The notes under the pieces were generated by a model. That model did no database searches and had not been told where the DNA came from. It saw only the letters and a list, made by a program, of their open reading frames with translations. DNA of 64,000 nucleotides, from contig NZ_CP030028.1 in the NCBI RefSeq assembly GCF_003586445.1, forward strand, positions 3,858,501-3,922,500, read 5' to 3'. The translations under genes and the position numbers were made by a program. Positions within the stretch are counted from its first letter, which is position 1, and each line of letters starts with the position of its first letter. Below, one piece after another: positions 1 through 48,169 of this stretch. Origin of the DNA: Bacillus sp. Y1 (lineage in GTDB: Bacteria; Bacillota; Bacilli; Bacillales; Cytobacillaceae).

Positions 1-1
1 A

Positions 2-2083
2 AGAATGTACGAAAATAACTCGATTACAAAAGATCAATATGACGAAGCATTAAGCTATGATGTGACAAAGGATCTTATCCCAGCTGGGACAAGTTCTATA
101 GAGCAATATCCATGGGTTACCTTTGAAATCGAAAAAAGAGCCATAGACATACTTGCTAAAATTCTTGCAGAAAAAGATGGTTATACAGAAGAAGACTTAC
201 AAAATGACAATGCTTTGTTTGAAGAATATCAAACATTAGCAGACAGAGATATCCGTCGTAACGGGTATGAAATTCACTCCACGATTGATAAGAACATTTA
301 CGACGCAATGGATAAGGTGAAAAATGAGTATCAAAACTATGGGCCGGACAAGCCAGAAACGGTGATAGACCCTGAAACAGGGGAAGAAGTGACCATTATG
401 GAACCTGTCCAAGTAGGTGCGATTCTTATTGAAAATAAAACCGGTAAAATTTTGAGTTTTGTAGGCGGTAGAGAGTATTCCGAAGACTCTCAGCTGAACC
501 ATGCTACGAATGCCATTCGTCAAAACGGGTCAACGATGAAGCCGCTGCTTGTATACGCTCCTGCTTTTGAGCTTGGAAAGGCTTCACCAGGTAGTATTTT
601 ACCTGATGTACCGTTACGATTAGCGCCAGGGATTAATCGCCCTTGGCCAACGAACTATGATAAGAGCTATAGTGGACTGGTTACTGCGAGATACGCTTTA
701 GCTAAATCATTTAACGTTCCTGCTGTTAAACTATACAAAGATATTATTGGTCAGAGACCAGCTGAATACTTAAAGAAGATGGGATTCTCTGCTTTAACTC
801 CTGGGGACTATGAACAATTGTCAACGGCTATTGGATCATTAGATAACGGAGTAACCGTTGAAGAAAACACAAATGCATTCGGTACTTTTGCAAATAGTGG
901 ACAGTTTATCGACGCATATATGATTGAAAAAATCGTTGATAAAGACGGGAATATTCTTTACCAGCATGAAGTAAAACCGGTAGAAGTATTTAGCCCACAA
1001 ACCGCTTACCTCACGATTGATATGATGCGTGATGTAATCAATATGGGGACAGCTACTTCCGTTAAAAGTAGACTAAAGTTTTCATCTGATTGGGCTGGAA
1101 AAACTGGAACAGGAACAGATTTCCATGATGCCTGGTTCGTGGCGGTAAATCCAAATGTCTCTTTTGGTATTTGGAACGGATATGATACACCAAAATCTCT
1201 AAAATCATCTGGCCTCAATTATAGCTTACGGAATAACTATTTATGGGCTGACTTGATGAATGCAGCTTATGATGTAAATCCTGCTTTAATTGACCCTGCT
1301 GAAAGCTTTAACATGCCTGGTGGAATTGTGAGACGTTCATTCTGTGGTATTTCTGGTTTGCTCCCTTCAGATGCATGTTCAAAGGCTGGACTAGTTCAAA
1401 CCGACTTATTTAATGCGAAATACGTACCGACGACTGTTGATGACAGCTTAGTCCAAGGAAAATATGTAACAATCGGAGATAAAAAGTATTTGGCACTAGA
1501 TTCAACCCCAGCAGAGTTTGCAGAAACAGGAATGATATTAAACCCTGATTATATTGAAAAACTCTTTGGAATTAAGACAGGAGTTCAAAACCTGATTCCG
1601 AAAAAGAACAATAGCAATTGGGCAAACATTCTTCTTCCGGATGATAAACTTTCAGATAATGGAAAGGCGCCATCTCCTTTATCAATAGGTGTAAATGGCA
1701 ATCAAATTACTTGGGGTTCTCACCCTGAAAATGATATTGTTGGATATCGTGTGTATTTGAATGGAAATAAAGTTGCTAGTATTAAGGTTGGCTCAGCACT
1801 TTCGTTTAGTGGTGGAAACGGCAAATATTATGTAACCGCGGTTGACATTGCTGGACAAGAATCAGCACCTTCGAATGAGGCATTAATCGGGCCAAAAGAA
1901 GAGGAAAAGCCTGCTGAACCACCAGTAACAGATCCTGGGACTGGAACAGGGACTGGAACAGGCACAGACCCTGGTACAGGAACAGGCACAGACCCTGGTA
2001 CAGGAGGAGAAACCGGTTCAGGAAACGGAAATGGAAACGGGACAAATCCTGGCAATAACGGTGGAAATGGTTCAAACGGATAA
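2..2083 (+). CDS. Class A penicillin-binding protein, 3' part (5' end outside window)
   Basis: The frame is open at the left edge, so the N-terminal membrane anchor and most of the glycosyltransferase (GT51) domain are missing. What remains is the transpeptidase domain that cross-links peptidoglycan outside the membrane. Counting from the ATG at position 5, the three penicillin-binding motifs are present: STMK (about 176-179, acyl-enzyme serine), SFN (about 235-237) and KTG (about 366-368). A fibronectin-III-like segment follows at about 555-630. The protein ends in a low-complexity Gly/Thr/Asp/Pro/Asn tail of about 55 residues, typical of Bacillus PBP1-type enzymes. The gene converges on acsA across a shared terminator. 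The exact paralogue (PonA-, PbpF- or PbpG-like) cannot be fixed without the N-terminus. Confidence 0.93.
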   Translation, partial: RMYENNSITKDQYDEALSYDVTKDLIPAGTSSIEQYPWVTFEIEKRAIDILAKILAEKDGYTEEDLQNDNALFEEYQTLADRDIRRNGYEIHSTIDKNIYDAMDKVKNEYQNYGPDKPETVIDPETGEEVTIMEPVQVGAILIENKTGKILSFVGGREYSEDSQLNHATNAIRQNGSTMKPLLVYAPAFELGKASPGSILPDVPLRLAPGINRPWPTNYDKSYSGLVTARYALAKSFNVPAVKLYKDIIGQRPAEYLKKMGFSALTPGDYEQLSTAIGSLDNGVTVEENTNAFGTFANSGQFIDAYMIEKIVDKDGNILYQHEVKPVEVFSPQTAYLTIDMMRDVINMGTATSVKSRLKFSSDWAGKTGTGTDFHDAWFVAVNPNVSFGIWNGYDTPKSLKSSGLNYSLRNNYLWADLMNAAYDVNPALIDPAESFNMPGGIVRRSFCGISGLLPSDACSKAGLVQTDLFNAKYVPTTVDDSLVQGKYVTIGDKKYLALDSTPAEFAETGMILNPDYIEKLFGIKTGVQNLIPKKNNSNWANILLPDDKLSDNGKAPSPLSIGVNGNQITWGSHPENDIVGYRVYLNGNKVASIKVGSALSFSGGNGKYYVTAVDIAGQESAPSNEALIGPKEEEKPAEPPVTDPGTGTGTGTGTDPGTGTGTDPGTGGETGSGNGNGNGTNPGNNGGNGSNG

Positions 2084-2085
2084 CC

Positions 2086-2126
2086 AAAAAAGCAATCCTC
2101 AATGAAAAGAGGATTGCTTTTTTTTC
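2086..2126. terminator. Bidirectional intrinsic terminator
   Basis: A perfect 10-bp stem (AGCAATCCTC with GAGGATTGCT) and an 8-nt loop are flanked by an A run on the left and a T run on the right. It can therefore serve both the PBP gene and the convergent acsA. Confidence 0.9.
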
Positions 2127-3845
2127 TTAATCTTCCATTGTAGAAAGATCACCTGTTGGTAAATCTAACTCCCACGCTTTTAAGACGCGTCGCATAATTT
2201 TACCACTTCTTGTTTTCGGAAGTTTATCTCGGAATTCAATTTCACGAGGCGCTGCATGAGCCGCTAACCCTTTTTTCACAAATTGACGGATATCCTCCTT
2301 TAACTCTTCCGTTACTTCGTATCCATCTCTTAATGCAACAAATGCCTTAATAATTTCCCCTCTTACTGGATCTGGCTTCCCAATGACACCTGCCTCAGCG
2401 ACTGCTGGATGTTCAACCAGTTTGCTTTCTACTTCGAAAGGTCCTACACGTTCACCAGATGTCATAATCACGTCGTCAATTCTTCCTTGGAACCAGAAGT
2501 AACCATCTTCATCCATATATGCAGAGTCACCAGACACATACCAACCACCCGGCATAAAATACGACTCGTATTTCTGCTCATTTTTCCAAATGGTATGCAT
2601 CATGGATGGCCAGCCTTTTTGAATGGCTAAATTACCCATTCTATATGGAGGCAGTTCATTTCCTTGGTCATCAACGATGGCTGCTTTTACTCCTGGGATT
2701 GGTTTACCCATAGAGCCTGGCTTAATTTCCATACAAGGATAATTACAAATTAATTGAGCACCCGTTTCTGTCATCCACCATGTATCATGAATTCTAAGCT
2801 GGAATACCTTCATTCCCCAACGAACGACCTCTGGATTTAATGGCTCACCCACACTTAAAATATGTCTTAAGCTACTTAAGTCAAAGCGCTTTACCACTTC
2901 ATCTCCCGCACCCATCAACATTCTAAAGGCGGTTGGAGCACTATACCAAACACTAACGCCGTATTCTTCAATCATTTTGTACCATGTTTCTGGATTAAAG
3001 CGGCCACCTACAACTACATTAGATGTCCCCGTAAGCCATGGACCAAAGATTCCATAGGAAGTTCCGGTTACCCAACCTGGATCAGCTGTACACCAGTACA
3101 CATCGTCATCCTTAAGGTCTAATACCCATTTTGCTGTTTGATAGTGTTGAATCATTGCATTATGTACATGCAGTACACCCTTTGGTTTTCCCGTTGACCC
3201 TGATGTATAGTGGAGAATGAGTCCGTCTCTTCGGTCTACCCATTCAATGTCTAGCTTGCTGCTTGACTCTTCAAATCTCTTCTTAAAATCAATAAACTTT
3301 CCTTCTTCTTTAATATTTTCTCCCACCAAGAAAATCGTTTTTAAAGCAGGAAGTTCATCTACTGGGACTCTCTCAAGAAGTTCCGGTGTTGTCACAAGAA
3401 CCTTTGCCTCACTGTCTTCCAAACGATCTCGAACAGCACCTTCCATAAATGCTTCAAATAATGGTCCAACAATGGCTCCTAGTTTGATTGCACCTAAAAC
3501 AGCAAAATACAATTCTGGTGATCTCGGCATAAAAATGAAGACACGGTCCCCTTTTTCCACATCTCCAAATGATTTTAATGCATTACCAGCTTTGTTTGAG
3601 AATTGCTTCATTTCTTTAAACGTATACTTTTCATTACGATCTGCATCTCTGTAATAAAGAGCAACCTTGTTTTTACGGTAGGATTCTGCATGTCGGTCAA
3701 TCGCTTCATACGCAAGGTTTACTCGACCTGTTTCAGACCATGAAAATTCCTTTTCCACTTCTCGCCAGTCGAATTGCTTGTACATTTCATCATAGTTTCC
3801 TAGATTAAATACCCCATTGACTACTGATAGCGCTTCCACTTTCAT
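2127..3845 (-). CDS. acsA: Acetyl-CoA synthetase (AMP-forming)
   Basis: Activates acetate to acetyl-CoA via acetyl-AMP in the cytoplasm. The product is 572 aa when started at the ATG at 3843-3845, which follows AAAGGGGGAT at good spacing; an in-frame upstream ATG lacks a ribosome site. The ANL-family signature YTSGSTGKPKG lies near residue 230, YVSGDSAYMDEDGYFWFQGR in the C-terminal third, and PKTRSGKIMRR near the end. The lysine in that last motif is the known target of AcuA acetylation and AcuC deacetylation in B. subtilis. The gene is divergent from acuABC, so enzyme and modification system share one control region containing a CcpA operator. Confidence 0.97.
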   Translation of the reverse strand: MKVEALSVVNGVFNLGNYDEMYKQFDWREVEKEFSWSETGRVNLAYEAIDRHAESYRKNKVALYYRDADRNEKYTFKEMKQFSNKAGNALKSFGDVEKGDRVFIFMPRSPELYFAVLGAIKLGAIVGPLFEAFMEGAVRDRLEDSEAKVLVTTPELLERVPVDELPALKTIFLVGENIKEEGKFIDFKKRFEESSSKLDIEWVDRRDGLILHYTSGSTGKPKGVLHVHNAMIQHYQTAKWVLDLKDDDVYWCTADPGWVTGTSYGIFGPWLTGTSNVVVGGRFNPETWYKMIEEYGVSVWYSAPTAFRMLMGAGDEVVKRFDLSSLRHILSVGEPLNPEVVRWGMKVFQLRIHDTWWMTETGAQLICNYPCMEIKPGSMGKPIPGVKAAIVDDQGNELPPYRMGNLAIQKGWPSMMHTIWKNEQKYESYFMPGGWYVSGDSAYMDEDGYFWFQGRIDDVIMTSGERVGPFEVESKLVEHPAVAEAGVIGKPDPVRGEIIKAFVALRDGYEVTEELKEDIRQFVKKGLAAHAAPREIEFRDKLPKTRSGKIMRRVLKAWELDLPTGDLSTMED

Positions 3846-15606: not shown

Positions 15607-15643
15607 AAAAAAGATGCAGCCACTAAAGCTGCATCTTTTTTTT
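15605..15643. terminator. Bidirectional terminator M29 peptidase/murC
   Basis: A perfect 10-bp stem AAGATGCAGC/GCTGCATCTT is flanked by A and T runs. Confidence 0.9.
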
Positions 15644-16937
15644 ATAATTGGCGTTCGTAAGCTTCTTGGAATTTTTGAATATCTCCTGCTCCCATGAACA
15701 GGATGACACTGTTTTCATGTTTCTTTAGAGTTTCTGTATTTTCTTCGTTGATCATTTCAGCCGATTCGATTTTATTGCGTAAGTCCTCGATTGATAACTT
15801 TCCATGGTTCTCCCTGGCCGAACCGAAAATATCACATAAATATACTTTATCTGCTAATTGAAGACTATCAGCAAATTCCTCTAAAAATGTTTGTGTTCTT
15901 GTAAATGTATGAGGCTGGAATACAGCAACAATTTCACGATCTGGATACTTTTGTCTTGCTGCATCAACCGTCGCCTTAATCTCCGTTGGATGATGTGCAT
16001 AATCATCAATCAATACCTGAGAGCCGACGTGCTTTTCTGTAAATCTCCTCTTAACCCCTGTGAAGCTTAACAGCTGTTCCTTGACCTTGTCAGCTGACAG
16101 CTCCTCATAGTGACAAATGGCAATAACAGCAAGAGCATTTAATACATTGTGATCACCGAAGGTTGGTACCTGGAATGTATCATAAAAAGTGTTTCTAACA
16201 AATACATCGAAGGTCGTCCCTTCAGTAGTTTTTACAACATTTCTAGCCTGGAAGTCATTTTCTTCGCCAAAGCCATAAAAAACAACAGGTACTTTTGCTT
16301 GAATCTTTTGAAGCTGCTCATCATCGCCACAAGCAAAAATCCCTTTTTTCACCTGCCATGCCATCTCTTGAAATGCAGAAAATACATCATCAATATTAGC
16401 AAAATAGTCAGGGTGATCAAAATCAATATTCGTCATGATTGCATAATCTGGAAAATACGATAAGAAATGCCTTCTATATTCACAAGCTTCAAACACAAAA
16501 TACTCGGCATTTTCTTCCCCTTTACCCGTACCATCTCCGATTAAAAACGCAGTTGGTTTTGCACCTCTCATGACATGCGAAAGGAGCCCGGTTGTAGATG
16601 TCTTCCCGTGGGCACCAGTCACAGCAATACTAGTGAAATTTTGCATAAAATCACCTAAGAAACGGTGATATCGAATGACAGGTAAACCTAGTTTCATCGC
16701 TTCTTGAATTTCTTCATGTTCATCTTTATAGGCATTTCCAGCAATAACTGTTAATCCTGGTACAATATTTTCTTTTTGGAAAGGTAGGATCTTTATTCCT
16801 AAATGTTCAAGGGCCGTCTGTGTAAAGAAACGTTTCTCAATATCTGAACCCTGAACCTCAAAATTCATATCATGAAGAATTTGTGCTAGTGCACTCATTC
16901 CAGATCCTTTTATACCCACAAAATGGTAAATTGTCAT
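15642..16937 (-). CDS. murC: UDP-N-acetylmuramate--L-alanine ligase
   Basis: Adds L-alanine to UDP-MurNAc with ATP, the first amino-acid step of peptidoglycan precursor synthesis. The 431-aa product has the UDP-binding start [16 protein letters not shown], the ATP loop [14 protein letters not shown] (about 107-120), the Mur signature DYAHHPTEI (about 310-318) and FQPHTFTRT. The ATG at 16935-16937 lies 8 nt after GGAGG; an upstream ATG five codons earlier overlaps that site. The gene is intact and marks the left edge of the damaged region that follows. Confidence 0.97.
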
Positions 16938-17171
16938 ATAAAGAACCTCCAACCATCTTCTAACTGTATCACAGTATATGACATTTTCTTTTATTTGCTC
17001 ATTTTTGCATTACGTCCTCTTTGTTTGCAAATAGTGAACACGATTTTATCATATTGTGACATTATATCATTTATTAATTATAAAAACTATGCAACGTTTG
17101 GCCATAATACCTTTTCTTTCTATGTCTATTTTACTCCATAGTTTATGAAAAAAAGCCTAAAATAACCATAC

Positions 17172-19770
17172 TTACATTTCTTGTATACTTTGAAGATCAT
17201 CCTGATTAATTAATACATCACGCGGTTTACTGCCACGATTTTCAGAAATATACCCGTTTTTCTCCATCATATCAATTAATCTAGCTGCTCGATTATAACC
17301 AATCTTGAATCTTCTTTGAAGGCTCGAGGTGGAAGCAGAGCCTTGATCAACGACAAATTCACAAGCTTCAAAAAATAGTTCATCTTCTTCTTCAGTAACA
17401 GCAGCCCTCTTTAATAGCTCCTCTTGATGAAACAAGTAGTTTGGACTTTGTTCTCTTCGAACATGAGCTACTACTTGGTCAATTTCTTCATCTGATACAA
17501 ATGTACCTTGAAGACGAACAGGTTTTGAGGATCCATTTTCTAAAAATAGCATATCCCCACGACCTAGTAGACGTTCTGCTCCAGCGATATCAATAATCGT
17601 ACGAGAATCGATTTGACTTGATACAGAGAAGGCGATTCTTGTAGGAACATTTGCTTTAATTAATCCCGTAATAACATCAACAGACGGTCGTTGTGTTGCA
17701 ATAATTAAGTGAATCCCACATGCTCTAGCCTTTTGAGCGATACGACATATCGCTTCCTCGACATCTGCAGGGGCCATCATCATCAAGTCCGCTAATTCAT
17801 CTATAATAATGACAATGAACGGTAGCTTATCGGCATGTTGATTATGCTGTTCACATTGTTCATTAAAACGATTGATCTCACGTACTCCTGTATGTGCAAA
17901 TAATTCGTATCGTCTTTCCATTTCCTCAACAGCCCACTTAAGGGCAGCTGTTGCTGCTTTTACATCGGTAATCACAGGACTTACAAGATGCGGTATTTGA
18001 TTATAAGGCGCAAGCTCAACCATCTTCGGATCAATTAATAGAAGCTTTAATTCATCAGGCCTAGCTTTATAGAGAAGGCTGACTAAGATTGTATTTATGC
18101 ACACACTTTTCCCAGACCCAGTAGCTCCTGCAATTAAGCCATGCGGCATTTTTACGCAAATCAGTTACAATTGGCTTCCCGGATATATCTAGTCCGAGTA
18201 CAGCTGTTAAAGGTGACTTCGATTGTAGAAATTCTGTGCTGTTAATAATTTCCGAGAGTAAAACCGGTCTACTTACTTCATTCGGGACCTCAATCCCGAT
18301 CGTGTGTTTTCCTGGAATCGGTGCTTCAATCCGAATATCTTTTGCGGCAAGACTTAATTTTATATCATCTGCTAGATTAGTAATTTTGTTTACTTTTACA
18401 CCCGGCTCCGGTTGCACCTCAAACCTTGTAACCGATGGACCTTGTGTAACATTTACCACACTTGCTCGAACATTAAAACTTTCTAACGTGTCGTTTAGAA
18501 GCCTTTCCGCTCCTCAAGCCATTCTCCACTTGTATCATAAATAACGGGAGGTGACAGGAGATCGAGCTCAGGGAATACGTAGTACGGATTTTCCTCATCG
18601 ATCACTTCAGCTATCTCATTGACGCTAGCAGGCTGCTTATTTTCTTCGGCTTCCTTTTCAGGTATCAATGTTTTCGTTGGCTCAATAGTGGCTTACTCTT
18701 TATTGATTTTTTTTTCCTCTAATCTACGACGATCTTCTTTCAACATTAATACATTAAAAGGCAATTGCTTGCGTTTAGGCGCAGGTTCGACAGGAGGTTC
18801 TTCATGACCATCTAATCCTCCTGTTCGGTATTCTGTTGCATGCTTTCTTCGATTGTTTGCACCTCTACCTGTTCAAGTTCCTCTTCAGCTACGTTCAGTT
18901 CTTTCTATCTGAACACTCTGTTCAACTACGTTTAGTTCTTCTTCTATCTGGACACTTTGTTCAACTACGTTTAATTCTTCTATTTGTACACTTTGTTCAA
19001 CTTCTAGTTTTTTCCTCTTCCTCGGCGAAACTCTCAACTGCTACGGCAACCTCTAATTCCCCGGTAGGCTCCAATGGGACATAGTGCTCTAAAACTTCCT
19101 CTTCAACTGTCTCTATTTGATCTAGATGAGCATAATCCGGTTCTGCACCTGTTTCTATAGGAAGCGATTCCTCTGTAACATCCATGCTAATCAATTCAAT
19201 GGGATCCGTATTTATAACCGTTTCTTCTACTTGAACAACTTCTTCAATGGCCTGTTTCTCTATTCTATCTACCTGAACAGATGCTTCAGAATAACGCTCT
19301 ATGTACTCTTTCTTCAAAAAGGAGTTTAACTCGTATTCTAACCGGCTTCTCCTCCTGCGGTCTTACCCTTTCTCAAACCCATAGACTGGAGAAGGAATTT
19401 CTGTTGGTCGAAACGGTCTTCTTGATACATCTCTATTTTTTGTTTCACTTTTAGTAGGTGGACTTTCTTTGCTTTTTGTAAGAGAGCCGACTCTAGGTTT
19501 CGAACGAACCGCTTCACTTTTCATTACTGGTTCCGTTCGCTGATGGGAAGAAGTCCTTTCTTCTCTACTTTTTCTAGAAGCTTTCTGCATTTCTCGTTCA
19601 TCAGGTATTAACGGAAACTTAAATTTACCCTTCGGATACTGGTAGGCAATTCGAGCATCCATATCCTTTTGTTCTTTTCTTGTTTCTTTAAATGGTTCTA
19701 CCTTTTGTTCATATATTTCTTCCACTTCATCGTCACTTATTTTACTAAACAATTTCTTAAACCAATTCAA
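17172..19770 (-). pseudogene. sftA: DNA translocase SftA, interrupted by multiple frameshifts
   Basis: FtsK/SpoIIIE-family translocase that in B. subtilis is soluble, septum-associated and clears DNA from the division plane. The N-terminal piece (19770-19363) shows the SftA start and EIPSPVYGF. The C-terminal piece (17172-18149) has Walker A GATGSGKS, Walker [14 protein letters not shown] and a winged-helix gamma domain. Frame breaks occur near 18151 (extra A in a run of five), 18507, 18818, 18906, 19010 (extra A), 19322-19333 and 19370. There is also an in-frame TAA at 18693-18695. With frame restored the protein is about 865 aa and complete. The breaks at A/T runs suggest sequencing error rather than true inactivation. 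Confidence 0.9.
18901..19003 (-). repeat. Short direct repeats in the SftA acidic linker
   Basis: Three tandem copies encode VEQSVQIEELNV or VEQSVQIEEELNV (36-39 bp each) in the acidic linker between the N-terminal targeting region and the motor domain. A decayed fourth unit (LNVAEEELEQVEVQ) follows. Confidence 0.8.
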
Positions 19771-19937
19771 ACCTTATCACTCTTTCTTCTTTCTCATCAT
19801 GTCTTCTTATTTTATCATTGAATACAATAATATCGACAAGAAATAAAAGATTGCTAGTAATAATATAATTTTGAATCTTTTGACCTAACTAAATTTTAGC
19901 TTGTTGGTTTTCGCTCCAGAGACAACATAAAAAGGAA

Positions 19938-19962
19938 AAAAGGACCATCATTGGCCCTTTAG
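19938..19962 (-). terminator. Possible terminator after ytpQ
   Basis: A near-perfect stem (AAAGGACC with GGCCCTTT) is followed on the minus strand by a U-rich stretch at the end of ytpQ. The stem contains one mismatch. Confidence 0.5.
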
Positions 19963-20766
19963 TTTGGTTTTTTACTTCTGTTTTTTCCTAAAATAAAGAT
20001 CGGTTCTAATTCACCATTTTCATATAAAAAGGATAATGCCGTTATTGGCACTCGACCGCTGGCAAAGAAGCTCATGGTCATTTGTGCGAGAATATCATAA
20101 CCTGTCTCATTTTGAATATCTGCCAGAATTAATACATCCTGATGTGGAACCGCTACCGCCATATCTCCAGTAATTTTCGAACTCATTTCCTTTTAAAAAC
20201 GCATCGTTTAGGACACGGCTTGCATCATACCCGTCATTTGTATTGAGGAAATAAAAGATATTTCCTGCCACTTCATCACGTTTCATAGTTGTTTTTAGGC
20301 TTCTTACATTGAAAAGAGCTACTTCACGGATATAGTCTCTCGTCCAATTCTCCTTTGCCATTAATGCTTCATCAATAATTCGGTACGCATTTCCTAAATC
20401 TAGCGAATAAACCCTGGTTTCAGCCGTATGATCATCATATACTAAAGGAATTTCTTCACGCGATACAACAGGAGTAGACGTAGAGCGTTATGACAGGAAA
20501 AATCCGAGTCTTTTCACCCTCTTGAGTCGTTTTCTCATCCATTGCCTTAAGGCCTTCCTCAACATAGTATACGACTTCTTCGATGGCCTTTTCTTTGTCT
20601 ACTTCCCATTTTGCTATAATTCTAGGCAACTCAACGGAAATTCCTCTTCCACTTTCCTTGCTCTCTATACGTAATTGATCATTTTTGCGATCATAAGTTA
20701 TCGTACGGCTATCACTTTGAAGCGTTTTTCAAGCTCCGTCTTCATTTTTTTACTATCCATTTTCAT
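19959..20766 (-). pseudogene. ytpQ: YtpQ, DUF1444 protein, frameshifted
   Basis: The start ATG at 20764-20766 lies 9 nt after GGAGG. The product reads MKMDSKKMKTELEKRFK and then shifts frame near 20718, where one A seems missing. It continues through ESGRGISVELPRIIAKWEV, shifts near 20487 (extra A) and again near 20180 (A run). The tail [20 protein letters not shown]...[12 protein letters not shown] is the conserved C-terminus of the DUF1444/YtpQ family. Restored length is about 268 aa, matching the family. Function is unknown; in B. subtilis it lies beside ytpP and sftA as here. Confidence 0.85.
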
Positions 20767-20811
20767 AAATACTTGCCTCCTTATTGGAGAATTTCTCTTT
20801 TATCTACATGA

Positions 20812-20845
20812 AATAGCCCCAATCTCGGGAGGATTGGGAGCTATT
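20812..20845 (-). terminator. Terminator after ytpP
   Basis: A 13-14 bp imperfect stem (AATAGCCCCAATC with GATTGGGAGCTATT) lies just past the ytpP stop, before the ytpQ start. This gives the two genes separate transcription. Confidence 0.7.
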
Positions 20846-20851
20846 CCATTA

Positions 20852-21162
20852 TTATAGACCTTCGATAAATTGCTCAATTTCTTCTTGTGTTTTCCGGTCT
20901 TTGCTGACAAAACGGCCTAGCTCGTTTCCATCTGCAAACGCGATAAAGCTAGGGATTCCAAACACATCTAAGCTTATACACAAGTCATAAATTGATCACG
21001 ATCTACATGAACAAAATTGTATTCACTATATTTCTCTTCTATTTCTGGCAAGACCGGCTCAATCACTCGGCAGTCTGGACACCAATTTGCTGAAAACATA
21101 AATATATGTTTCCCATTGTTTTTCATCGTTTCAAACTGTTCTACACTCTCAAGCATTTTCAT
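20852..21162 (-). pseudogene. ytpP: YtpP thioredoxin-like protein, one frameshift
   Basis: About 103 aa when repaired. The thioredoxin fold has an active site FSANWCPDCRVIEP (CPDC, near residue 26), then after a break near 20985 the cis-Pro segment [13 protein letters not shown] and a C-terminal [13 protein letters not shown]. The break looks like the loss of one G in GG, giving a premature TAA. The start ATG at 21160-21162 follows GGGAGG. It is probably a thiol-disulfide reductase; its specific partner is unknown. Confidence 0.87.
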
Positions 21163-21263
21163 ATGATTACCTCCCATAACAGTTTATACATTACGTAAAT
21201 AGTTATTCAGACTACCATATTCTAAAACATTGTAGCCCCTCTGAAAAGAAATTAGACTTACAA

Positions 21264-21381
21264 GAAAAGCGCAAGCGCCTTGGTAAGCTCCGACAGGCAT
21301 AAGACGGAGACCTAAAGCGGTCCTGACCTCTGTAGGGCTTTGGCTTATGACCCCGAGGAGCTAGGCGCTGGAGCTAGACAC
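21264..21381. repeat. Dispersed GC-rich repeat, family A copy 1
   Basis: The element begins AAAAGCGCAAGCGCC and ends GGCGCTGGAGCTAGACA, with partly self-complementary interior. The same ends occur at 44836-44987. Such intergenic elements are common in Bacillus genomes. No coding potential was seen. Confidence 0.8.
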
Positions 21382-21417
21382 TGCTCAAAGTTCTAAAACA
21401 ATACATTATTTTATAAC

Positions 21418-21450
21418 AAAAAACGAAGGAATTCATCCTTCGTTTTCTTT
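21418..21450 (-). terminator. Terminator overlapping lipoprotein gene end
   Basis: A perfect 11-bp stem AAAACGAAGGA/TCCTTCGTTTT has a 5-nt loop; it includes the probable stop codon of the lipoprotein gene. Confidence 0.8.
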
Positions 21451-21953
21451 TAACTCTATGGAGTTAACGATATCAATCATCATATCTGCTTCGCTGCTAA
21501 GGGACCTTGTTTTTTGTTTCTGTGGTAATCTTCATACCACCGACCCCTATAGTTAGCTCATTCAGGTTATCTTCGAGCTTTTTTACTAATAGAAAGCCAT
21601 ATTTCCCATCCGTTTTGATCACTTTATCGGTATCGAATTTGTCTTGATCGACTGTTGCTTGGTAAACGACTTCACTATCTTGACCTTCTATTGGATTGTA
21701 AAACAATATATATGTTTTTGAACCATTCTTTAAAATAATATTATTGGGAGATTCTTCTTCCACTTCAAAACCAAAAGGTAAATAATATTCAATTTCCTCA
21801 GTTTTATTATTTGGTTCTTTAGCCTCTTCCTTAAATGCGTTCTCCACAACATCAACTGTTTCTGTTTCCTCTTCGTCAAAGGATGCAGAACATCCACTAA
21901 GGTAAAATAGAGCAGCTATACAGAGGAGAGATGCCTGTATATACTTTCCTCAT
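21433..21953 (-). pseudogene. Small lipoprotein of unknown function, frameshifted
   Basis: The start ATG at 21951-21953 has a good GGGAGGAAG site. The signal peptide begins MRKVYTGIS. After a break near 21925 it continues with IAALFYLSGC, a lipobox whose Cys would carry the lipid. The mature part is acidic (EEETETVDVVEN) and followed by YLPFGFEVEEESPNNIILKN. A second break near 21505 replaces the early stop with a C-terminus ending VNSIELKENEG. Repaired length is about 173 aa. It is a surface-exposed lipoprotein, and I do not recognise the family with certainty. Confidence 0.75.
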
Positions 21954-22034
21954 ACTTTCTTCCTCCCTACATAGGACTATTGTCTTCCTTTCTATCATAC
22001 CCGTCTCCCTATCCAATGACAAGCCTTCCAATTG

Positions 22035-22561
22035 TTACAATTGTGTTTCTAAACCGTTTATGTGCCTGTATTCATATTGACCGACGAGTAAAGTACTAAC
22101 GTGAAGAAACATTTCCTGCCTCGGGATGAGTCCATTCGTAAAAGATTCCTATTGCCCCTTCTTTGCTTCGAATATTTGTTTTTTCATGAAGTCATCCATA
22201 ATCGGACCCAATTCTTCCCCTACTAATAGCCTATGTTCAATTTCTTTTGGTAATAAGATTCTAGCTCCGCCGCTAATAATGGGGGTTTTTCCATGTTGAA
22301 CTAATGCACCCCAATTACATAACATCATACCTATTTCGTTTGATGTACTCCACCTTCAAGACCTATCCCTATTTCTGCATCACTGATTTCAAGGGCTGCT
22401 TGCGCTCGATTGGGCTCCTTGAATCGTCTCTTCATCTGAAAAGGGTTGTTCACTTACACCAGATGGGACTTCCATTCCTTAACCGTTGCATTATAGCTCT
22501 TAAAAGCCTCTTCAACAGCTTTTACTTTCGTTTGGTTTTTTGAACCTACTGCCACATGCAT
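22035..22561 (-). pseudogene. DUF84 inosine/xanthosine triphosphatase, frameshifted
   Basis: The restored frame starts MHVAVGSKNQTKVKAVEEAF (the NTP-binding start of the YjjX/DUF84 family). It continues through GVSEQPFSDEET, AQAALEISDAEIGIGLEGGV, ISGGARILLPKEI and GAIGIFTNGLIPRQEMF. Family members hydrolyse ITP/XTP to keep damaged purines out of nucleic acid. At least four indels occur, including an extra base in the A run at 22140-22143. The start at 22559-22561 follows GAGGTG. The true end is probably the TAA at 22035. Repaired length is about 175 aa. Confidence 0.82.
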
Positions 22562-22621
22562 ATAACTACACCTCAACTTCAATATAAAAGGAGGTTCCCA
22601 ATGGTTACCTCCCTACCGTTT

Positions 22622-23694
22622 TTAACTATTTTGTCTAATTGTATCTACTGTAGTCTGGTCACAAGCCTTTACAAGTCTTATTAAAAGCTCTTTTGCAGCA
22701 GCATAATCGTCAACATGAACAATCGAAGCAGCAGTATGGATGTATCGAGAGCAAATACCAACAACAGCACTTGGAACCTTCATTTGAAATATGCACTCGT
22801 CCAGCATCAGTACCACCTGGGAGACAAAGTATGATGATATGATATATTATGCGTTTCTGCTGTATCTAGAACAAACTCTCTCATCCCTCGATGGGTTACC
22901 ATTGATCGATCTAGAATTCTTAGCAGCGCTCCTTTTCCTAGTTGACCAAACTCATTTTTATCACCTGCAGCATCATTTGCAGGACTTGCATCAAGGGCAA
23001 AGAAGATATCTGGCTTAATTAATGCGGCTGCTGTTTGTGCACCTCTTAATCCAACTTCTTCCTGAACGGTTGCGCCAGAATATAAAAGTGTTTGGTAAAC
23101 TCTCTCCTTGTACTTCTTCTAATAATTCAATAGCTAGACCACAACGTACCGGTTATCCCAAGCCTTGGCCATTATTTTCTTTTCATTTGCCATTGGGGTA
23201 AACGGACAGATCGGAACAATTTGCTGTCCTGGTTTAATACCTAGTTCCTTCGCATGATCCCTGCTATCAGCCCCAATATCAATTAACATATTACTAATTT
23301 CCATCGGCTTACTTCTCTTACTTTCATCCAAAAGATGAGGAGGAATGGAAGCAATCACCCCAATAACAGGACCGTCATTTGTCATGACCTGTACACGCTG
23401 TGCTAGTAGAACTTGGCTCCACCAACCGCCTAATGGCTGAAAACGAATCATCCCATTATCTGTAATCGCCGTTACCATAAATCCAACTCGTCCATATGTC
23501 CCGCAACCATGACACGAGGGCCATTGGCATTTCCGTGCTTCACTCCAAAAAATACTTCCTAAATTATCTTGAATGATTTCATCAGAATACTGAGTTAATT
23601 GTTCACGCATAAACTTTCTAACTAAATGCTCATTTCCAGATGCACCCTGAAGTTCCGTTAGCGTTTTGAAAAGCTGTAATGTCTTCGAATTCAT
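22622..23694 (-). pseudogene. ytoP: M42 glutamyl aminopeptidase YtoP, frameshifted
   Basis: The M42 family is cobalt/zinc-dependent aminopeptidases with a tetrahedral shell. Pieces in three frames give [102 protein letters not shown], and the end [24 protein letters not shown]. These include the metal-binding and catalytic regions expected of YtoP/FrvX enzymes. Breaks occur near 23135, 23070 and 22800, and in 23470-23550. The start ATG follows GGAGG. Restored length is about 358 aa, as in B. subtilis. Confidence 0.88.
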
Positions 23695-23855
23695 GTATTA
23701 TGGCCTCCTAATATTCACATGACTCTTTATGTACAATCTTTATTTTACTTAACTTTCCGACATGTTACCACTTTATTGGTTGCTACTCTTAATTATGTAC
23801 GCAAAATTTGATATGATGGAAGGAGAATTAATTTGTATGAAAAAGGAGGGGCTTT

Positions 23856-24185
23856 ATGAACTGGAAATCATTTTTAACTGGTGTTTCTGTTGGAATCATT
23901 TCGGGCTTTATAGCTAGCGAATGGGTCTCCCAAACGGGCAAAGTGTCCCCAGAAAAAGCCCTTACACACGCAAAGGCAAAATTTAAAGAAAGAGAGGTCC
24001 GATTAGCGGCTCTTGGATTCAAATGACAACTGAACCTTTTGAAAAAAACAAACATCACCTATGATGTGTATAAAGGTGGAGTATCACGAACGGTAGATGA
24101 CACTTTAGAGCAATACGAATTTATTTCAGATGCAAAAACCGGATATTCTAGAAGTATATCCACTTTAAGAAAAGCTGCCAAATAA
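23856..24185 (+). pseudogene. ytzB: YtzB, PepSY-like small membrane-associated protein, frameshifted
   Basis: The ATG follows AAAGGAGGGG. MNWKSFLTGVSVGIISGFIA forms a single N-terminal membrane segment. After a break near 24000 the frame gives ISGSWIQMTTEPFE. After an extra A in the run near 24040 it gives NITYDVYKGGVSRTVDDTLEQYEF and DAKTGYS, a PepSY-like pattern. Repaired length is about 109 aa. In B. subtilis ytzB sits beside ytoP, as here (divergent). The function is not established. Confidence 0.8.
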
Positions 24186-24200
24186 GGCAGCTTTTCTTAT
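24168..24200 (+). terminator. Terminator after ytzB
   Basis: A 9-bp stem AAAGCTGCC/GGCAGCTTT spans the ytzB stop codon and is followed by a T-rich stretch. Confidence 0.8.
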
Positions 24201-24236
24201 ATAACTCTCTTCACTGACTCAACAATTCAATAGTGA

Positions 24237-25032
24237 TCATTCCACTTTATTGCCCGCGATAGAAGCATCATGATAAAAGGTAAACCAAGCATGATTCTCC
24301 ATCCCAAATTGGAGCCACTTTTGTTTTGCATCTATCGAATTCATTGGATAATCATCATATGCCATAACCCAAAGTGGATTTTGGTGGGCATGTGTTGGCA
24401 TGATATCTGCCATATATGAATAACCACTTCATTGTCATCCTCAACGATAAGAATGGAATGTCCATCACTATGTCCACCAGTATGAACCATTTTTATTTTC
24501 CCATTGACCCACTCTTGCTCAAAAGGAACAACCTGTGACTCTATGCTTTTTTCCCTTTCCAGTATGTTTTGAGATCGAATATTTGGTTTTCTCATTTCAT
24601 TCCACTCGACTGTGGAAACGATAATTTCTGCGTTAGGAAATGTGGATATATACTCGTTATTCACTATTTCTGTTAACCCACAAGCATGATCAAAGTGATG
24701 TGTCATTTAAAACATAATTAATATCTTTTTTTGTTAACCCTAGTACTTCTAAGGATTGTAGCAGTTCTGATTCCTCTGTTACACCGAAATTTTTTTTTCT
24801 GTTTGTCAGACATCTTTCCTTTCCCAATTCCAGTCTCAACTAAAAAGTTTTTCCCTTCTTGCTGGATTAAAATAGGGTCGTTCTAAGCTCAATTTGATTT
24901 TTGTCGTTATGAGGGTATTTCTTTGACCAAAGTGCTTTCGGAACGACACCAAACATGGCACCACCATCTAAGTGAGTAACTCCGCCTTTCAACCAAGTAA
25001 GCTTTACATGTTTTAACTGTAACGTTTTCCAT
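24237..25032 (-). pseudogene. ytnP: Metallo-beta-lactamase-fold hydrolase YtnP, frameshifted
   Basis: The restored sequence starts at the ATG at 25030-25032 (after AGGGGGGATGAG) and reads [22 protein letters not shown]. It then gives [46 protein letters not shown] (HxxDH zinc motif), [46 protein letters not shown] and [13 protein letters not shown]. subtilis YtnP is a quorum-quenching lactonase-type enzyme. Breaks include an extra A near 25024, a run near 24700 and one near 24420. Restored length is about 265 aa, slightly short of the family. It ends before the ytzB terminator. Confidence 0.87.
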
Positions 25033-25189
25033 CTCATCCCCCCTAGGTCTTATACCTGTATTGTACCACTCCTTCCTTTTTTAGGAATATAAAAAAGAGT
25101 CTATCACGACAATAGACTGAAAGAAAATTGAGTTTAAATACGGTCCTTATCTTTGACAATATCAATCTAGATAAAAACAGCTTAGTTAG

Positions 25190-25306
25190 ATTTCCGCTGC
25201 GGGTGGGCGCTTTCCTCGGGGGGGCCGAGCCGCTTCCTTCGCTCAGTCCAGGGTCTCGACTGTCCCGCTTTTCCCGCAGGAGTCGCCACCCTCCGCTCCA
25301 ATCAAT
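25190..25306. repeat. Dispersed GC-rich repeat, family B copy 1
   Basis: The element runs from GATTTCCGCTGCGGGTGG to CCTCCGCTCCAATCAAT, is markedly more GC-rich than its surroundings, and carries complementary ends (TTTCCGCT and AGCGGA-like). It is related in inverted orientation to 25619-25741. Confidence 0.75.
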
Positions 25307-25618
25307 ATTTAATTCATCTAAAAGATATTACATTCCGAGGTGATTTCTATAAGAGGAAGGGTACCAAAGACCATTAGTACGTAAGCATGAGTCAATCATT
25401 GATATTTCGTTCATCCTATCAATCAAGCGTGTGGCTTTTCTAATACGAAGGAAAAGCGTGGTATGCAATGCTCATCCTCTCAAGTCCTAACAATTGTGCA
25501 TGAATTGATGCTTACGTTTACTGTTTGAATGTAAAAAAAAAACTGGAACTTAACAAGTTACTTGACAATAACTTAGGAAAGAAAGTTTCCCTAGTTAATA
25601 TTTATAGTCGAAACCGCT
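25307..25618. other. Non-coding segment between two inverted repeats
   Basis: No supported gene. It holds a pair of inverted GTAAGCAT/ATGCTTAC sequences about 130 bp apart (near 25381 and 25508). Between them is a smaller hairpin-like pair (GGCTTTTC and GAAAAGC). The flanking family-B repeats face each other, so the whole 550-bp unit could be one mobile or expanded intergenic element. An open frame at 25525-25785 is mostly translated repeat and is not accepted as a gene. Confidence 0.5.
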
Positions 25619-25741
25619 CATTGGATCGGAAGGTGCTTGACTCCTGGGGGATCAGCGTGACAAGTGAGACCCCACAGGCGAATGCCGAGGAGGCTCACCG
25701 CCCGCCCCCCGGAAAGCAAGCACCTGGAGAGGAAATCAGCC
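25619..25741. repeat. Dispersed GC-rich repeat, family B copy 2 (inverted)
   Basis: Begins CATTGGATCGGAAGGTGC and ends ACCTGGAGAGGAAATCAG. Its reverse complement shares blocks such as CAGGAGTC and a GGTG-GCTTTCC pattern with copy 1 at 25190. Confidence 0.75.
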
Positions 25742-25760
25742 TTTTCTCTACCATTCCAAA

Positions 25761-26570
25761 TTACTGTAAAAAATTCTTCCCATAAAAAATTTCATCCATT
25801 TCAGTTGTTAAGCTTTCTGTAATTTCTTCCTGCTCATATATGTTTAATGAATCTTTGTGTATCCAAATAATAATTATTTAAATCAAAAATTTTTTCAGTT
25901 TGCACTTCGTATGAAAGATATTTTCTTGATACACGTTTACATCAATCATAATCATATTGATTCTTGATCTCGTCTGGAATAAAATTTTGTATCGATGTGA
26001 TATCATGATCGATAAAACAATTTTGGCCATGTTTATCCCTCGTAAACCCGCGTACCCGGTAATCAATGGTCATAATATCTGTATCAAATGAATGGATTAA
26101 GTAATGTAACGCTTTTAAAGGAGAAATTTCCCCACAGGTGGAGACATCGATGTCAGCACGGAAGGTACTTATTCCTTCGTATGGGTGGAACTCCGGGTAC
26201 GTATGAACTGTAATATGAACTTTTATCCAATTGCATAACCACTGAATCCGGAAGTGGCCCTGGAGATTCGTCATATGTAGATTCAGTCGGCACCTCAACA
26301 ACAGTCCTTCAGAAACGAGAATGGTCACGCTTGCTCCCTGTGGTACATAATCCTGCTGAGCGATATTTAAAACATGTGCACCAATAATATCGGATACATT
26401 TTTTAAAATTTTTGTTAACCGATCTGCATTATATTGTTCATCAATATATTCTAAGTAAGCTTCCCGCTCTTGCCTGGTTTTGTGTAACAAATATCATACA
26501 TATTAAAGCTAAGTGACTTTGTTAAGTTATTTAATCCATGCAACTCAATTCGCTGTTCTGGAGTGAGCAT
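25761..26570 (-). pseudogene. speD: S-adenosylmethionine decarboxylase, SpeD (E. coli-type), frameshifted
   Basis: Pyruvoyl enzyme making decarboxylated SAM for spermidine synthesis. The restored protein (about 269 aa) begins [20 protein letters not shown]. It contains [13 protein letters not shown], whose Lys-Ser pair is the self-cleavage site of class 1 SpeD, then [68 protein letters not shown], and ends near EIFYGKNF. Breaks include a missing A near 26488, paired indels around 26230-26310 (an extra T beside the cleavage serine), and one each near 26030, 25957 and 25890. The start follows AAGGGGGAAG. B. subtilis itself uses the shorter SpeH type. Confidence 0.9.
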
Positions 26571-26630
26571 TCATTCTTCCCCCTTCACCATAATCTCCGT
26601 AAATATTATTAACTTACCCAACTCCTTACG

Positions 26631-26660
26631 AAAAAACAGTCCTACAATAGTAGGACTGCT
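26631..26660 (-). terminator. Terminator after trmB
   Basis: A 9-bp stem CAGTCCTAC/GTAGGACTG with a 4-nt loop abuts the trmB stop. The run of A before it reads as U on the minus strand. Confidence 0.85.
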
Positions 26661-27301
26661 TATTTTTTCTGAAATTGAACTTCGCAACGATAGATACGAG
26701 AGCCTTTGGAGGAGAACTTCTCTTCGTATTCTGTCATAATATTTCCTTCATAAGGACTATTATGAAGATCTAAGCTTACATACTTTAAAAGCATTCCGTA
26801 CTCCGAAAAGCTTCTAAGAGAGAACTCAAATAAAACCTTGATTATCTGTTTAAAGTGAAATCTCACCGTTATCTACCAGAATATTTTCATAAATGGAAAG
26901 GAAAGTTTTGTATGTTAAACCGTCTCTTCTCATGGCGTGTTTTCGGCAAGGATCAGAGAAATTTAAATAACTTGATCAACATCACCCTTTGCAAAATAGT
27001 TCTAAGTTCGACAGCATTTACGTTCATCAGACGCAGATTAGGAAGGTCTTCTTCAATTAGGCGGTCGAGAGCAATAACAATAACACTTTTATATACCTCC
27101 AATACCAATATAATTAATATGTGGATTTGCTTTAGCCATTTCAGTATGAAACGACCTTTACCCGTTCAATTTCGATATGAATAGGCTGGTCATTCCCGAA
27201 TACTTCGTTCCAATTTCCTTGTAGCTTTCTGGAATTTGCTACAACATATTGCGGATAGGATTCGAGCCTATCCTTTGCCAAGGCTTATTTCTTAAACGCA
27301 T
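26660..27301 (-). pseudogene. trmB: tRNA (guanine-N7-)-methyltransferase TrmB, frameshifted
   Basis: Methylates G46 in tRNA variable loops. The restored protein (about 214 aa) begins MRLRNKPW, then KDRLESYPQYVVANSRKLQG, HIEIGTGKGRFI (SAM site), INYIGIE, LNFSDPWPKTRHEKRRLTY (family signature), DNGEISLKTDNQGLFEFSL, and [20 protein letters not shown] near the C-terminus. At least six indels interrupt it, including a missing G in the SDPWPK region (near 26953) and breaks near 27272, 27153 and 27110. The start follows AGGGGTG. It is the last damaged gene; everything to the right is intact. Confidence 0.88.
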
Positions 27302-27401
27302 GTTGACACCCCTAAAATAATCTATCGTTCAAACCATATCATGTGAGCAATTTTGTTGCAACCAACTAATACCTAATCCATATAAATTAATTTACGTAAA
27401 T

Positions 27402-27442
27402 AAAAAAAGGAATTCACAACATAAATGTGAAGTTCCTTTTTG
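27402..27442. terminator. Terminator-like hairpin upstream of ytzH
   Basis: Stem AAAAAGGAATTCACA against TGTGAAGTTCCTTTTT with a short loop and A/T-run flanks. It lies between the divergent trmB and ytzH, so it could end antisense transcripts running leftward from ytmP, or act as an attenuator for ytzH. Confidence 0.6.
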
Positions 27443-27476
27443 CGTATTTTCAAGCAACCTTGAAAGGGTGTATCGG

Positions 27477-27755
27477 ATGCCTTTAGAACAGAAAGATCAA
27501 ATGAATTTATTAAAAGATATATTAACGAATCATAGTACCGATTGTTGCGGGTCCGTATCTGAATGTGAACAATTAGAACGTTTGGTAAAATCACTAATGG
27601 TTAACACGGAACTCGATCATAATGTAAAAAATGTACTGGAACAAATTTATAGCTATTCTCAGCACGGTGCAAATACGAATGAGCTTGATCAACATATTGA
27701 GTCGCACCAAGAACAACTTGGACAGTGGGTATCAGAAATTGATCAATTTTCTTGA
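27477..27755 (+). CDS. ytzH: YtzH-like conserved protein
   Basis: The 92-aa acidic protein of the YtzH family has the signature DCCGSVSECEQLERLVKSL near the N-terminus and a helical C-terminus. The start ATG at 27477 follows AAAGGGTG at 6 nt; a GTG three codons earlier overlaps that site. It overlaps the convergent ytmP by 13 bp. No function is known. It is conserved beside trmB and ytmP in Bacillus. Confidence 0.85.
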   Translation: MPLEQKDQMNLLKDILTNHSTDCCGSVSECEQLERLVKSLMVNTELDHNVKNVLEQIYSYSQHGANTNELDQHIESHQEQLGQWVSEIDQFS

Positions 27756-28528
27756 CCAACCAGAGTAGACAAATAATTCACCCAGTAATTCATCTCTTCG
27801 TACCTATCCTTATTTTTATGCCATTGAATAGATGAGATGGTCTGTGCAATCGTATACCATTTCATTCGCAGCATCAGTTCGTCCGTAAGCTCTATTTCAT
27901 ACATGTCTAACCATTCGCTCCATTTGTCTTGCGGGAGATACCAATACAGCATCATTCCTAAGTCTATGGCAGGGTCGGCAATCATCGCACCATCCCAATC
28001 AATGAGGTACAACTGGTTGCTTTCTGTGAGCAACCAGTTATTGTGATTAACATCGCAATGACAAACAACTTTTTCCTCATAATGTATACTATCAAGCTCC
28101 TGATGCAAGAATAATAGAGCCTCTTGAATGGCCGCGTGAGATTTCACATCTTCATCTATCTCCTGCACTAAAATGGACAAAAGATGAACAGGCTCTAATG
28201 GAGTTTTCCCCATCCTTTTTAGCATGCCGAGTAAGGCTTCCGACTGGTGAATCTTCTTTAGGAGCTTTGCCACTCTCTTCGTATTCATATCTTGCGGCTT
28301 TAGCTCTCTTCCCTCTAACCATTGCTGAGCGGTGATTACATCCCCATTTTCAAGCCTTTTTGTCCAAATTAGCTTTGGAACAATACCCTCTGCTGATAAT
28401 ACGGCAAGGAATGGAGAGGAATTTCGTTTAAGAAAGAGCCTCTGATCTTCATGCTGTGCAATAAACGCTTCTCCTGTCGCTCCTCCTGCAGGAACGATTT
28501 CCCACTCTTGTCCAAATAAGTGTTCCAA
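27743..28528 (-). CDS. ytmP: YtmP, aminoglycoside/choline kinase-like phosphotransferase
   Basis: The 261-aa small-molecule kinase fold (APH family) has the catalytic loop VCHCDVNHNNWLLTESNQLYL (HxDxxxxN) and the metal-binding LIDWDGAMIADPAIDLGMML. The N-terminal lobe is short. The substrate is not established; family members phosphorylate choline, amino sugars or similar alcohols. It is separated from amyX by a terminator and overlaps ytzH tail-to-tail. Confidence 0.9.
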   Translation of the reverse strand: MEHLFGQEWEIVPAGGATGEAFIAQHEDQRLFLKRNSSPFLAVLSAEGIVPKLIWTKRLENGDVITAQQWLEGRELKPQDMNTKRVAKLLKKIHQSEALLGMLKRMGKTPLEPVHLLSILVQEIDEDVKSHAAIQEALLFLHQELDSIHYEEKVVCHCDVNHNNWLLTESNQLYLIDWDGAMIADPAIDLGMMLYWYLPQDKWSEWLDMYEIELTDELMLRMKWYTIAQTISSIQWHKNKDRYEEMNYWVNYLSTLVGQEN

Positions 28529-45469: not shown

Positions 45470-47884
45470 CTAATTTGCTACAATATTAACTAATTTTCCT
45501 GGAACAGCAATCACTTTGCGGACAGTTTTTCCATCAATTTGCTCTTTAACTGTTGTATCATCCATAGCTATTTGCTCAAGTGCTTCTTTATTTGCATCAG
45601 ATGGCACCATAAGCTTCGCCTTCACCTTGCCGTTAATTTGAACAACGATTTCTACTTCATCATCAACTAGCTTCGCTTCATCAAATGCTGGCCAAGCTTC
45701 ATAGGAGATGCTTTCGCTATGACCTAACTTTGACCAAAGCTCTTCAGCTATATGTGGACAAATCGGAGCAAGCAATTTCACAAAGCCCTCCACATAGTCT
45801 TTTGGAAGCACTGGCGTTTTATAAGCTTCGTTAATAAATACCATTAACTGAGAAATAGCCGTATTAAAGCGTAATCCTTCAAAGTCCTCTGTCACCTTTT
45901 TCACGGTTTGGTGATAGACCTTTTCAAGACTAGAAGAATCAGCAGATTGAACCTTCTCTGCGATTTCACCATTTTCATCCACTAACAAACGCCAAATACG
46001 GTCTAGGAAGCGGCGTGAACCGTCTAACCCTTGTGTAGACCATGCGATAGAAGCTTCAAGTGGCCCCATGAACATTTCGTATAAACGAAGGGTATCAGCA
46101 CCATGGGTTCCAACGATTTCGTCAGGGTTTACGACATTCCCTTTTGATTTACTCATTTTTTCATTGTTTTCTCCAAGAATCATTCCTTGGTTAAACAATT
46201 TTTGGAATGGTTCTTTTGTGCTTACTACGCCGATATCATACAAAAATTTATGCCAGAATCGAGCATAAAGTAAGTGAAGAACCGCATGCTCTGCCCCACC
46301 TATATAAATATCAACTGGAAGCCACTCTTTTAATTTTTCTGGATCTGCTAACGCTTGATCATTCTTCGGATCAATATAACGTAAGTAGTACCAGCAGCTT
46401 CCTGCCCATTGCGGCATGGTATTTGTTTCACGACGTCCTTTTTTCCCTGTTACAGGGTCAACTACGTTTACCCAGTCTTCGATATTCGCAAGTGGCGATT
46501 CGCCTGTTCCAGACGGACGAATTTCTGTCGTTTTTGGCAACATCAATGGAAGCTCTGAATCAGGAACAGCTGTCATTGTTCCGTCTTCCCAGTGAATGAC
46601 TGGAATTGGCTCTCCCCAATAGCGTTGACGGCTAAATAACCAATCGCGTAGACGGTACGTAACCTTCTTCGTTCCAATTTCTTTTTCCTCTAACCAAGCA
46701 ATCATTCGAGAAATGGCTTCTTCTTTGTTCATTCCATTTAAGAAGTCAGAGTTTACATGCTCACCATCACCTGTGTAAGCTTCCTTAGAAACATCTCCAC
46801 CTGCAACGACTTCGACAATTGGCAATTCGAATTTCTTAGCAAATTCGTAGTCTCGCTCATCGTGACCTGGTACGGCCATGATCGCTCCTGTTCCATAGCT
46901 GACAAGTACATAATCAGCAATCCAGATTGGCATTTTCGCTCCGTTAACTGGATTAATTGCATAAGCACCTGTAAACACACCTGTTTTGTCTTTAGCTAAA
47001 TCGGTACGCTCCAAATCACTCTTACTTTTGATCTGTTCAATATAGGATTGAACCGCATCACGCTGGTCATCTGTCGTAATACTCTCAACCAATGCATGCT
47101 CTGGTGCTAATACCGCATAGGTGGCACCGAATAATGTATCAGGTCTTGTTGTAAAAACCGTGAACTGACCATCGTTACCCTCAATGTTAAAAGTAATCTC
47201 GGCTCCTTCAGAGCGACCGATCCAGTTGCGTTGCATATCCTTTAAGCTTTCTGGCCAGTCAAGTTCTTCCAAGTCCTCTAATAAACGATCCGCATACGCA
47301 GTAATTTTTAATACCCACTGCTTCATTGGACGGCGTTCAACGGGATGACCACCACGTTCACTTTTTCCATCAATGACTTCTTCATTTGATAATACCGTTC
47401 CAAGAGCTGGACACCAGTTTACGGCTACCTCATCAATATAGGCTAGGCCTTTTTCAAACAATTTTAAGAAAATCCATTGTGTCCATTTATAATATTCAGG
47501 ATCTGTAGTGTTCACTTCGCGATCCCAATCGTATGAGAAACCTAAAGCCTTGATTTGGCGCTTAAATGTTGCAATATTTAATGCTGTAAATTCAGCAGGA
47601 TCATTCCCTGTGTCTAATGCATATTGCTCAGCTGGAAGACCAAACGCATCCCATCCCATTGGGTGTAACACGTTATAGCCTTGCGCACGCTTCATACGTG
47701 ATAAAATATCTGTTGCAGTGTAACCTTCTGGATGTCCTACATGCAGTCCTGCTCCAGATGGATACGGAAACATATCTAACGCATAAAATTTGCGCTTTCC
47801 TTTTTCTTCACTTGTTTGAAACGTCTTATTAGCATCCCAAAAGCTCTGCCACTTTTTTTCAATTTCTTGATGATTAAAGCTCAC
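45470..47884 (-). CDS. leuS: Leucyl-tRNA synthetase
   Basis: The 804-aa class I aminoacyl-tRNA synthetase has a HIGH-type [12 protein letters not shown] (near 47), a CP1 editing domain with [14 protein letters not shown] (near 225), the zinc/leucine-specific region, and KMSKS in [14 protein letters not shown] (near 580). Length equals B. subtilis LeuS (804). The start is a GTG at 47882-47884 after AGGAGG. Expression is preceded by a T-box leader that senses uncharged tRNA-Leu. Confidence 0.98.
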
Positions 47885-47920: not shown

Positions 47921-48169
47921 AAAATCCCGTCCCTATAAAAAGGGACGAGAGGATTATGTAGAATCTCCCGCGGTACCACCCACATTAGTGCACAAGTCAC
48001 TCGCTTCATTATCCTTAACGCGGAATACGGCAAGCATTACTTTCCTTTCACACTTGCGACTCAAAGGCGAGTTCATGGACACCTGGTTGACTTTCACCAT
48101 CCGTCAACTCTCTACTTTCAGGTATTTCTCACTACTACTCCTTATCATGGTCACCACATATTTAAGTAT
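47921..48169 (-). promoter_or_regulatory. T-box riboswitch leader of leuS
   Basis: The minus strand carries the T-box consensus GGGTGGTACCGCGG (47968-47981) followed by a terminator stem (47925-47950: TCCCGTCCCT/AGGGACGAGA) and a U run. The upstream 170 nt can form the stem I region (AGAGAGTTGACGG and GTCAAC nearby). A CUC in GAACTCGCC near 48068 would be the leucine specifier, though this was not folded. Uncharged tRNA-Leu would stabilise the antiterminator and allow leuS transcription. Confidence 0.93.

Follow-up and report, generated by a model that had tools for sequence, protein, structure and literature searches.

Do ten consecutive broken genes in the chromosome of Bacillus sp. Y1 record a real loss of function, or do they reflect the way in which the sequence was assembled? 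The question arises in a window of 64,000 nucleotides, the whole stretch of DNA analyzed here, which corresponds to positions 3858501-3922500 of a genome of 5.03 Mb that consists of one contig and is rated 100% complete; coordinates below are those of the window. In its list of open reading frames (ORFs), long genes stop at 18149 and resume at about 27468, with fragments alone between them, and none of the ORFs of at least 200 aa covers 18150-27396. Our analysis indicates that this block is very probably a local low-quality consensus patch of the assembly.

To place the breaks, window positions 10008-36057 were compared with three congeners, G004, G001, and G003, in a four-way MAFFT alignment. 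All three are collinear with the window, with aligned pieces that are 92-94% identical in G004, 92-94% in G001, and 81-90% in G003. A further congener (G002), which is only 66% complete, was left out of the alignment and gave no match to the window stretch searched. Indels of 5 bases or less were counted as small, and events were termed private when present in the window against all three congeners. For four indels in ytnP the comparison rests on G004 and G003 only, since G001 lacks ytnP at this location. Two large private inserts (138 and 634 bases), both containing repeats of this genome, were removed ahead of the indel count.

Apart from the missing ytnP of G001, the frames of all three congeners are full-length across the region. 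The products of G004 belong to the expected Pfam families in nine of ten cases, the lipoprotein-like one having no Pfam match. Five of the seven window fragments scanned against Pfam match a family (two FtsK/SpoIIIE pieces, DUF1444, M42 peptidase, and AdoMet decarboxylase) and two match none. The gene names, listed in Table 1, are presumptive: they are those of the earlier note, and the Pfam matches back the families, not the names.

Table 1. The indel block and the ten broken genes in window coordinates, with the small private indels assigned to each and the length of the G004 product.
Feature	Coordinates	Strand	Private indels	G004 product	Remark
Indel block	18149..27396		62 small, ~7.4 per aligned kb		
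sftA (FtsK/SpoIIIE family)	17172..19770	-	9 frameshifting	858 aa	no indel before 18149
ytpQ (DUF1444)	19959..20766	-	4, of which 3 frameshifting	269 aa	
ytpP (thioredoxin-like)	20852..21177	-	1 frameshifting	108 aa	
Lipoprotein-like gene	21433..21953	-	2 frameshifting	172 aa	no Pfam family
DUF84 gene	22035..22601	-	5 frameshifting	190 aa	
ytoP (M42 aminopeptidase)	22622..23694	-	7 frameshifting	357 aa	
ytzB (PepSY domain)	23856..24168	+	3 frameshifting	103 aa	opposite strand
ytnP (metallo-beta-lactamase fold)	24197..25032	-	9, of which 8 frameshifting	279 aa	absent here in G001
speD (S-adenosylmethionine decarboxylase)	25761..26570	-	7 frameshifting	269 aa	
trmB (putative methyltransferase family PF02390)	26660..27301	-	9 frameshifting	214 aa	

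Each of the ten genes that the earlier note named as split bears at least one private indel in this alignment, and the neighbors that it described as intact are so: murC (15642-16952, 436 aa) on the left and the ytzH ORF (27468-27755, 95 aa, the same length as in G004) on the right. A kinase-like gene at 27743-28528 (261 aa) is also intact. The 62 small private indels, 58 against all three congeners plus the four in ytnP, comprise 35 deletions and 27 insertions, and the length is not a multiple of three in 60 of them. Genes hold 56 of these events, 54 of them frameshifting, and intergenic DNA holds the other six. The flanks, with 16.8 kb aligned in total, contain none on the left and two on the right, both intergenic; with events taken as independent, the binomial probability of such clustering is about 2e-27.

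The position of the cluster had been judged roughly well, although its limits had been given as 17172-27301 and the lesions run from 18149 to 27396. The left edge lies inside sftA and the right edge in the gap before ytzH, so that the limits of the block are unrelated to those of genes, and genes of either strand fall within it. Noncoding and coding DNA are affected alike, with 6.4 indels per kb in intergenic and 7.5 per kb in coding sequence. Within intergenic DNA, the block holds six indels in 901 aligned bases vs two in 2158 in the flanks (p = 0.010), where intergenic means outside the ten genes in the block and outside all ORFs of at least 75 aa in the flanks. Spacing between indels averages 137 aligned bases (sd 125), and their positions depart slightly from uniform, being denser rightward (KS p = 0.02). 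When private indels of all sizes are counted in the left flank, block, and right flank, the window has 0/60/2, G004 2/7/1, G001 3/19/2, and G003 10/14/10. The block counts of G004 and G001 exceed those of their own flanks, which implies a modest enrichment of indels here in two congeners as well, most of all in G001; these counts are far below that of the window, and the genes there are full-length.

Several other features were observed in the window. A repeat of about 120-160 bases at 21262-21420, mostly an insert absent from the three congeners at the same site, has 49 matches in its own genome (E up to 1e-3), four of them in tandem near 1.072 Mb. The 634-base intergenic insert at 25121-25755 is likewise absent from the congeners at this location, and parts of it recur, some in opposite orientation, among 26 own-genome matches. 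Farther right, the segment 36964-38808 is common to the window and G003 and missing at the same place in G004 and G001, and a T-box leader (47938-48157, minus strand) lies directly upstream of an 804-aa ORF (45470-47884) that is presumably leuS.

The remainder of the chromosome was sampled by ORF cover in 741 overlapping 4-kb bins from 41 pieces, namely the window plus 40 further stretches of 20 kb each, which together make up about 17% of the genome; the scan is blind to isolated single errors. The lowest cover is that of the block (0.00), the next lowest is 0.14, and none of the 40 other 20-kb stretches shows comparable ORF loss. Bins with a cover of 0.20 or less occur in four of these stretches (bins of 0.20-0.40 were inspected in part): two contain rRNA (L126 and L143), one contains prophage-like short genes (L141), and one contains packed short ORFs, as judged by ORF layout only (L162). 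No Rfam match was obtained in seven further stretches. The short-gene run of L141 (10913-16058 of that stretch), a few kb to the left of the window, appears prophage-like, with Pfam matches for 4 of 10 products (YopX, IstB-like, DUF1642, and a weak NfeD).

We also sought an intact same-species copy of the broken genes by protein search with the lipoprotein and SpeD fragments, and none was found. The top match of the lipoprotein fragment is 89% identical over a protein of 172 aa (108 hits at E up to 1e-10). The top foreign match of the SpeD fragment is 82% identical, with 269 aa (among the best 120 of 7893 listed), in a search that scored only the 7999 candidates with most words in common. Named proteins among the matches of both fragments come from Robertmurraya, Neobacillus, Cytobacillus, Mesobacillus, Paenibacillus, Bacillus, and others. 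The broken SpeD piece itself (25942-26490, 182 aa) has its own entry, P0109, in the searched protein set, under a contig of 5028825 bases.

The breaks had been labeled homopolymer indels, and the three run sites singled out (18149, 19008, and 22140) are each a window-private one-base insertion. As a description of the block, the label does not hold: runs of at least four bases contain 8 of the 48 one-base events against a background of 9.5% of bases (p = 0.13), runs of at least three contain 17 of 48 against 22% (p = 0.035), and five insertions have no identical neighboring base. Homopolymers account for a minority of events, and on the first of these counts homopolymer errors were rejected as the main class.

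Substitutions provide a further line of evidence. In gap-masked columns, private substitutions number 83 in 7949 for the left flank, 92 in 6572 for the block, and 80 in 8388 for the right flank, which corresponds to 10.4, 14.0, and 9.5 per kb, respectively; relative to the private substitutions of G004, the block is not significantly raised (p = 0.33). With ytzB excluded, third codon positions stay favored (50 of 83 in the block, 93 of 146 in the flanks), and the ratio of nonsynonymous to synonymous private substitutions (N:S) is, for the window, 39:44 (block) and 56:90 (flanks), compared with 41:106 and 99:213 for G004. For the window's block, the difference is significant against the block of G004 (p = 0.004) and falls short of significance against the window's own flanks (p = 0.21). 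The contrast with G004 persists with gap masks of 3 to 30 columns and is stronger when ytzB is included and the variable N-terminal part of sftA excluded (30:40 vs 16:95). Raised nonsynonymous change, which the earlier note had named as a sign of relaxed selection and one part of a case against poor sequence, is therefore present relative to G004 and not significant relative to the window's own flanks; it could reflect either substitution errors or relaxed selection. Nonsense changes are uninformative as a separate sign because private substitutions involving a stop in the block number three in the window, two in G004, two in G001, and one in G003.

How many substitutions accompanied the indels can be estimated in two ways. 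Total rates give about 14 extra substitutions in masked columns, or 18 over the block, and an N:S mixture gives up to about 34 in 4896 sites, or near 60 over the block, the upper estimate being set by the higher figure obtained without the variable part of sftA. Either base errors or a slight relaxation of selection could account for these extra substitutions. For comparison, Table 1 of PMC4978911 gives 3.35 substitutions to 1.20 indels in Bacillus subtilis mutation accumulation; at this ratio, about 170 substitutions would be expected alongside 62 natural indels. The indels of the block thus outweigh its extra substitutions (62 vs 18-60), by a wide margin if the lower estimate holds and only just if the upper one does, and the natural ratio is not attained.

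This shortage weighs against natural decay, in which the ten genes would have become nonfunctional in this lineage, with relaxed selection allowing indels and substitutions to accumulate. Such a history would account for the nonsynonymous share, raised in the block relative to G004, and by simple arithmetic about 7 indels per kb would be attainable if decay had lasted most of the window's own branch. Frameshifts that interrupt consecutive genes are also what a pseudogene cluster would present. Unlike such a cluster, this block affects intergenic DNA about as heavily as coding DNA, carries few extra substitutions, and has one edge in the middle of a gene. It further takes in ten unrelated genes on both strands, keeps its third-position bias, and is bordered by aligned genes that bear no private indels. 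Despite the raised nonsynonymous share, natural decay is disfavored by the substitution shortage, and we regard it as very unlikely.

A real event of another kind would be a mutation shower, a single episode of error-prone repair synthesis laying dozens of indels over about 9 kb. Sharp edges, a single block in the sampled genome, and near-random spacing would all fit it. However, we know of no bacterial process that produces 62 nearly balanced indels of 1-3 bases, many of them outside repeats, within 9 kb, and an extraordinary event would be needed where a common artefact suffices, which leaves this account extremely improbable.

The origin of the block in another organism or in a duplicate copy, the chimeric patch that the earlier note had offered as one option, would likewise explain the sharp edges, but its probability is close to negligible, and it was rejected on the own-genome search and the substitution rates: identity to G004 and G001 is 90-94% for matching pieces of 16900-27900, comparable to the 92-94% of the window elsewhere, private substitution rates lie near those of the flanks, repeats of the same genome sit inside the block, and no second copy was seen among the four of nine own-genome matches listed. 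One of those four is the full-length match of the block to itself, and the others are short repeats and a distant gene of the FtsK/SpoIIIE type that matches at 66%; the remaining five are weaker than 217 bits.

The low-quality assembly patch remains, and the earlier reading of poor local sequence or low coverage is supported by the sharp edges of the block, its disregard of genes and strand, the intergenic indels, and the few extra substitutions. The patch looks native rather than chimeric: about 9.25 kb of the organism's own sequence would have been written out with about 0.7% residual indel error, in a chromosome that appears clean in the flanks and in the other parts sampled. The errors presumably arose in sequencing or consensus calling. 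A likely route would be a gap or contig join spanned by a few uncorrected long reads and missed by polishing, and the length of the block is about that of one long read.

Two published accounts offer parallels. PMC12007338 describes long-read errors as mainly short indels that are largely tied to homopolymers and fragment genes, and it also reports insertion errors tied to no particular homopolymer. The present case resembles those assembly errors in that short, mostly one-base frameshifting indels mimic pseudogenes while relatives are intact; it differs in forming one 9-kb block, with the sampled rest clean and most events outside homopolymers. Since the errors described there are mostly homopolymer-tied, the low homopolymer share found here fits only in part. 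PMC4699355 (Circlator) describes poor-quality contig ends before circularization and rotation to dnaA, and the block is comparable as a poor stretch in a seemingly closed chromosome rotated towards dnaA. The record starts at an internal methionine codon of dnaA, with the N-terminal part at the record's end (positions 1-3000 of stretches L152 and L153). Beginning inside dnaA, it was probably rotated, with the original contig ends elsewhere, and the block may represent an old circular join.

Were the indels genuine, the block would stand as an unusual mutation cluster. Scattered sequencing errors are the most likely source of the breaks, and living cells probably carry all ten genes intact. The case is an ordinary one that reveals nothing biologically new, and its value lies in a warning against pseudogene calls: despite the one-contig, 100%-complete rating of the genome, an annotation would count ten genes, sftA, speD, and trmB among them, as lost.
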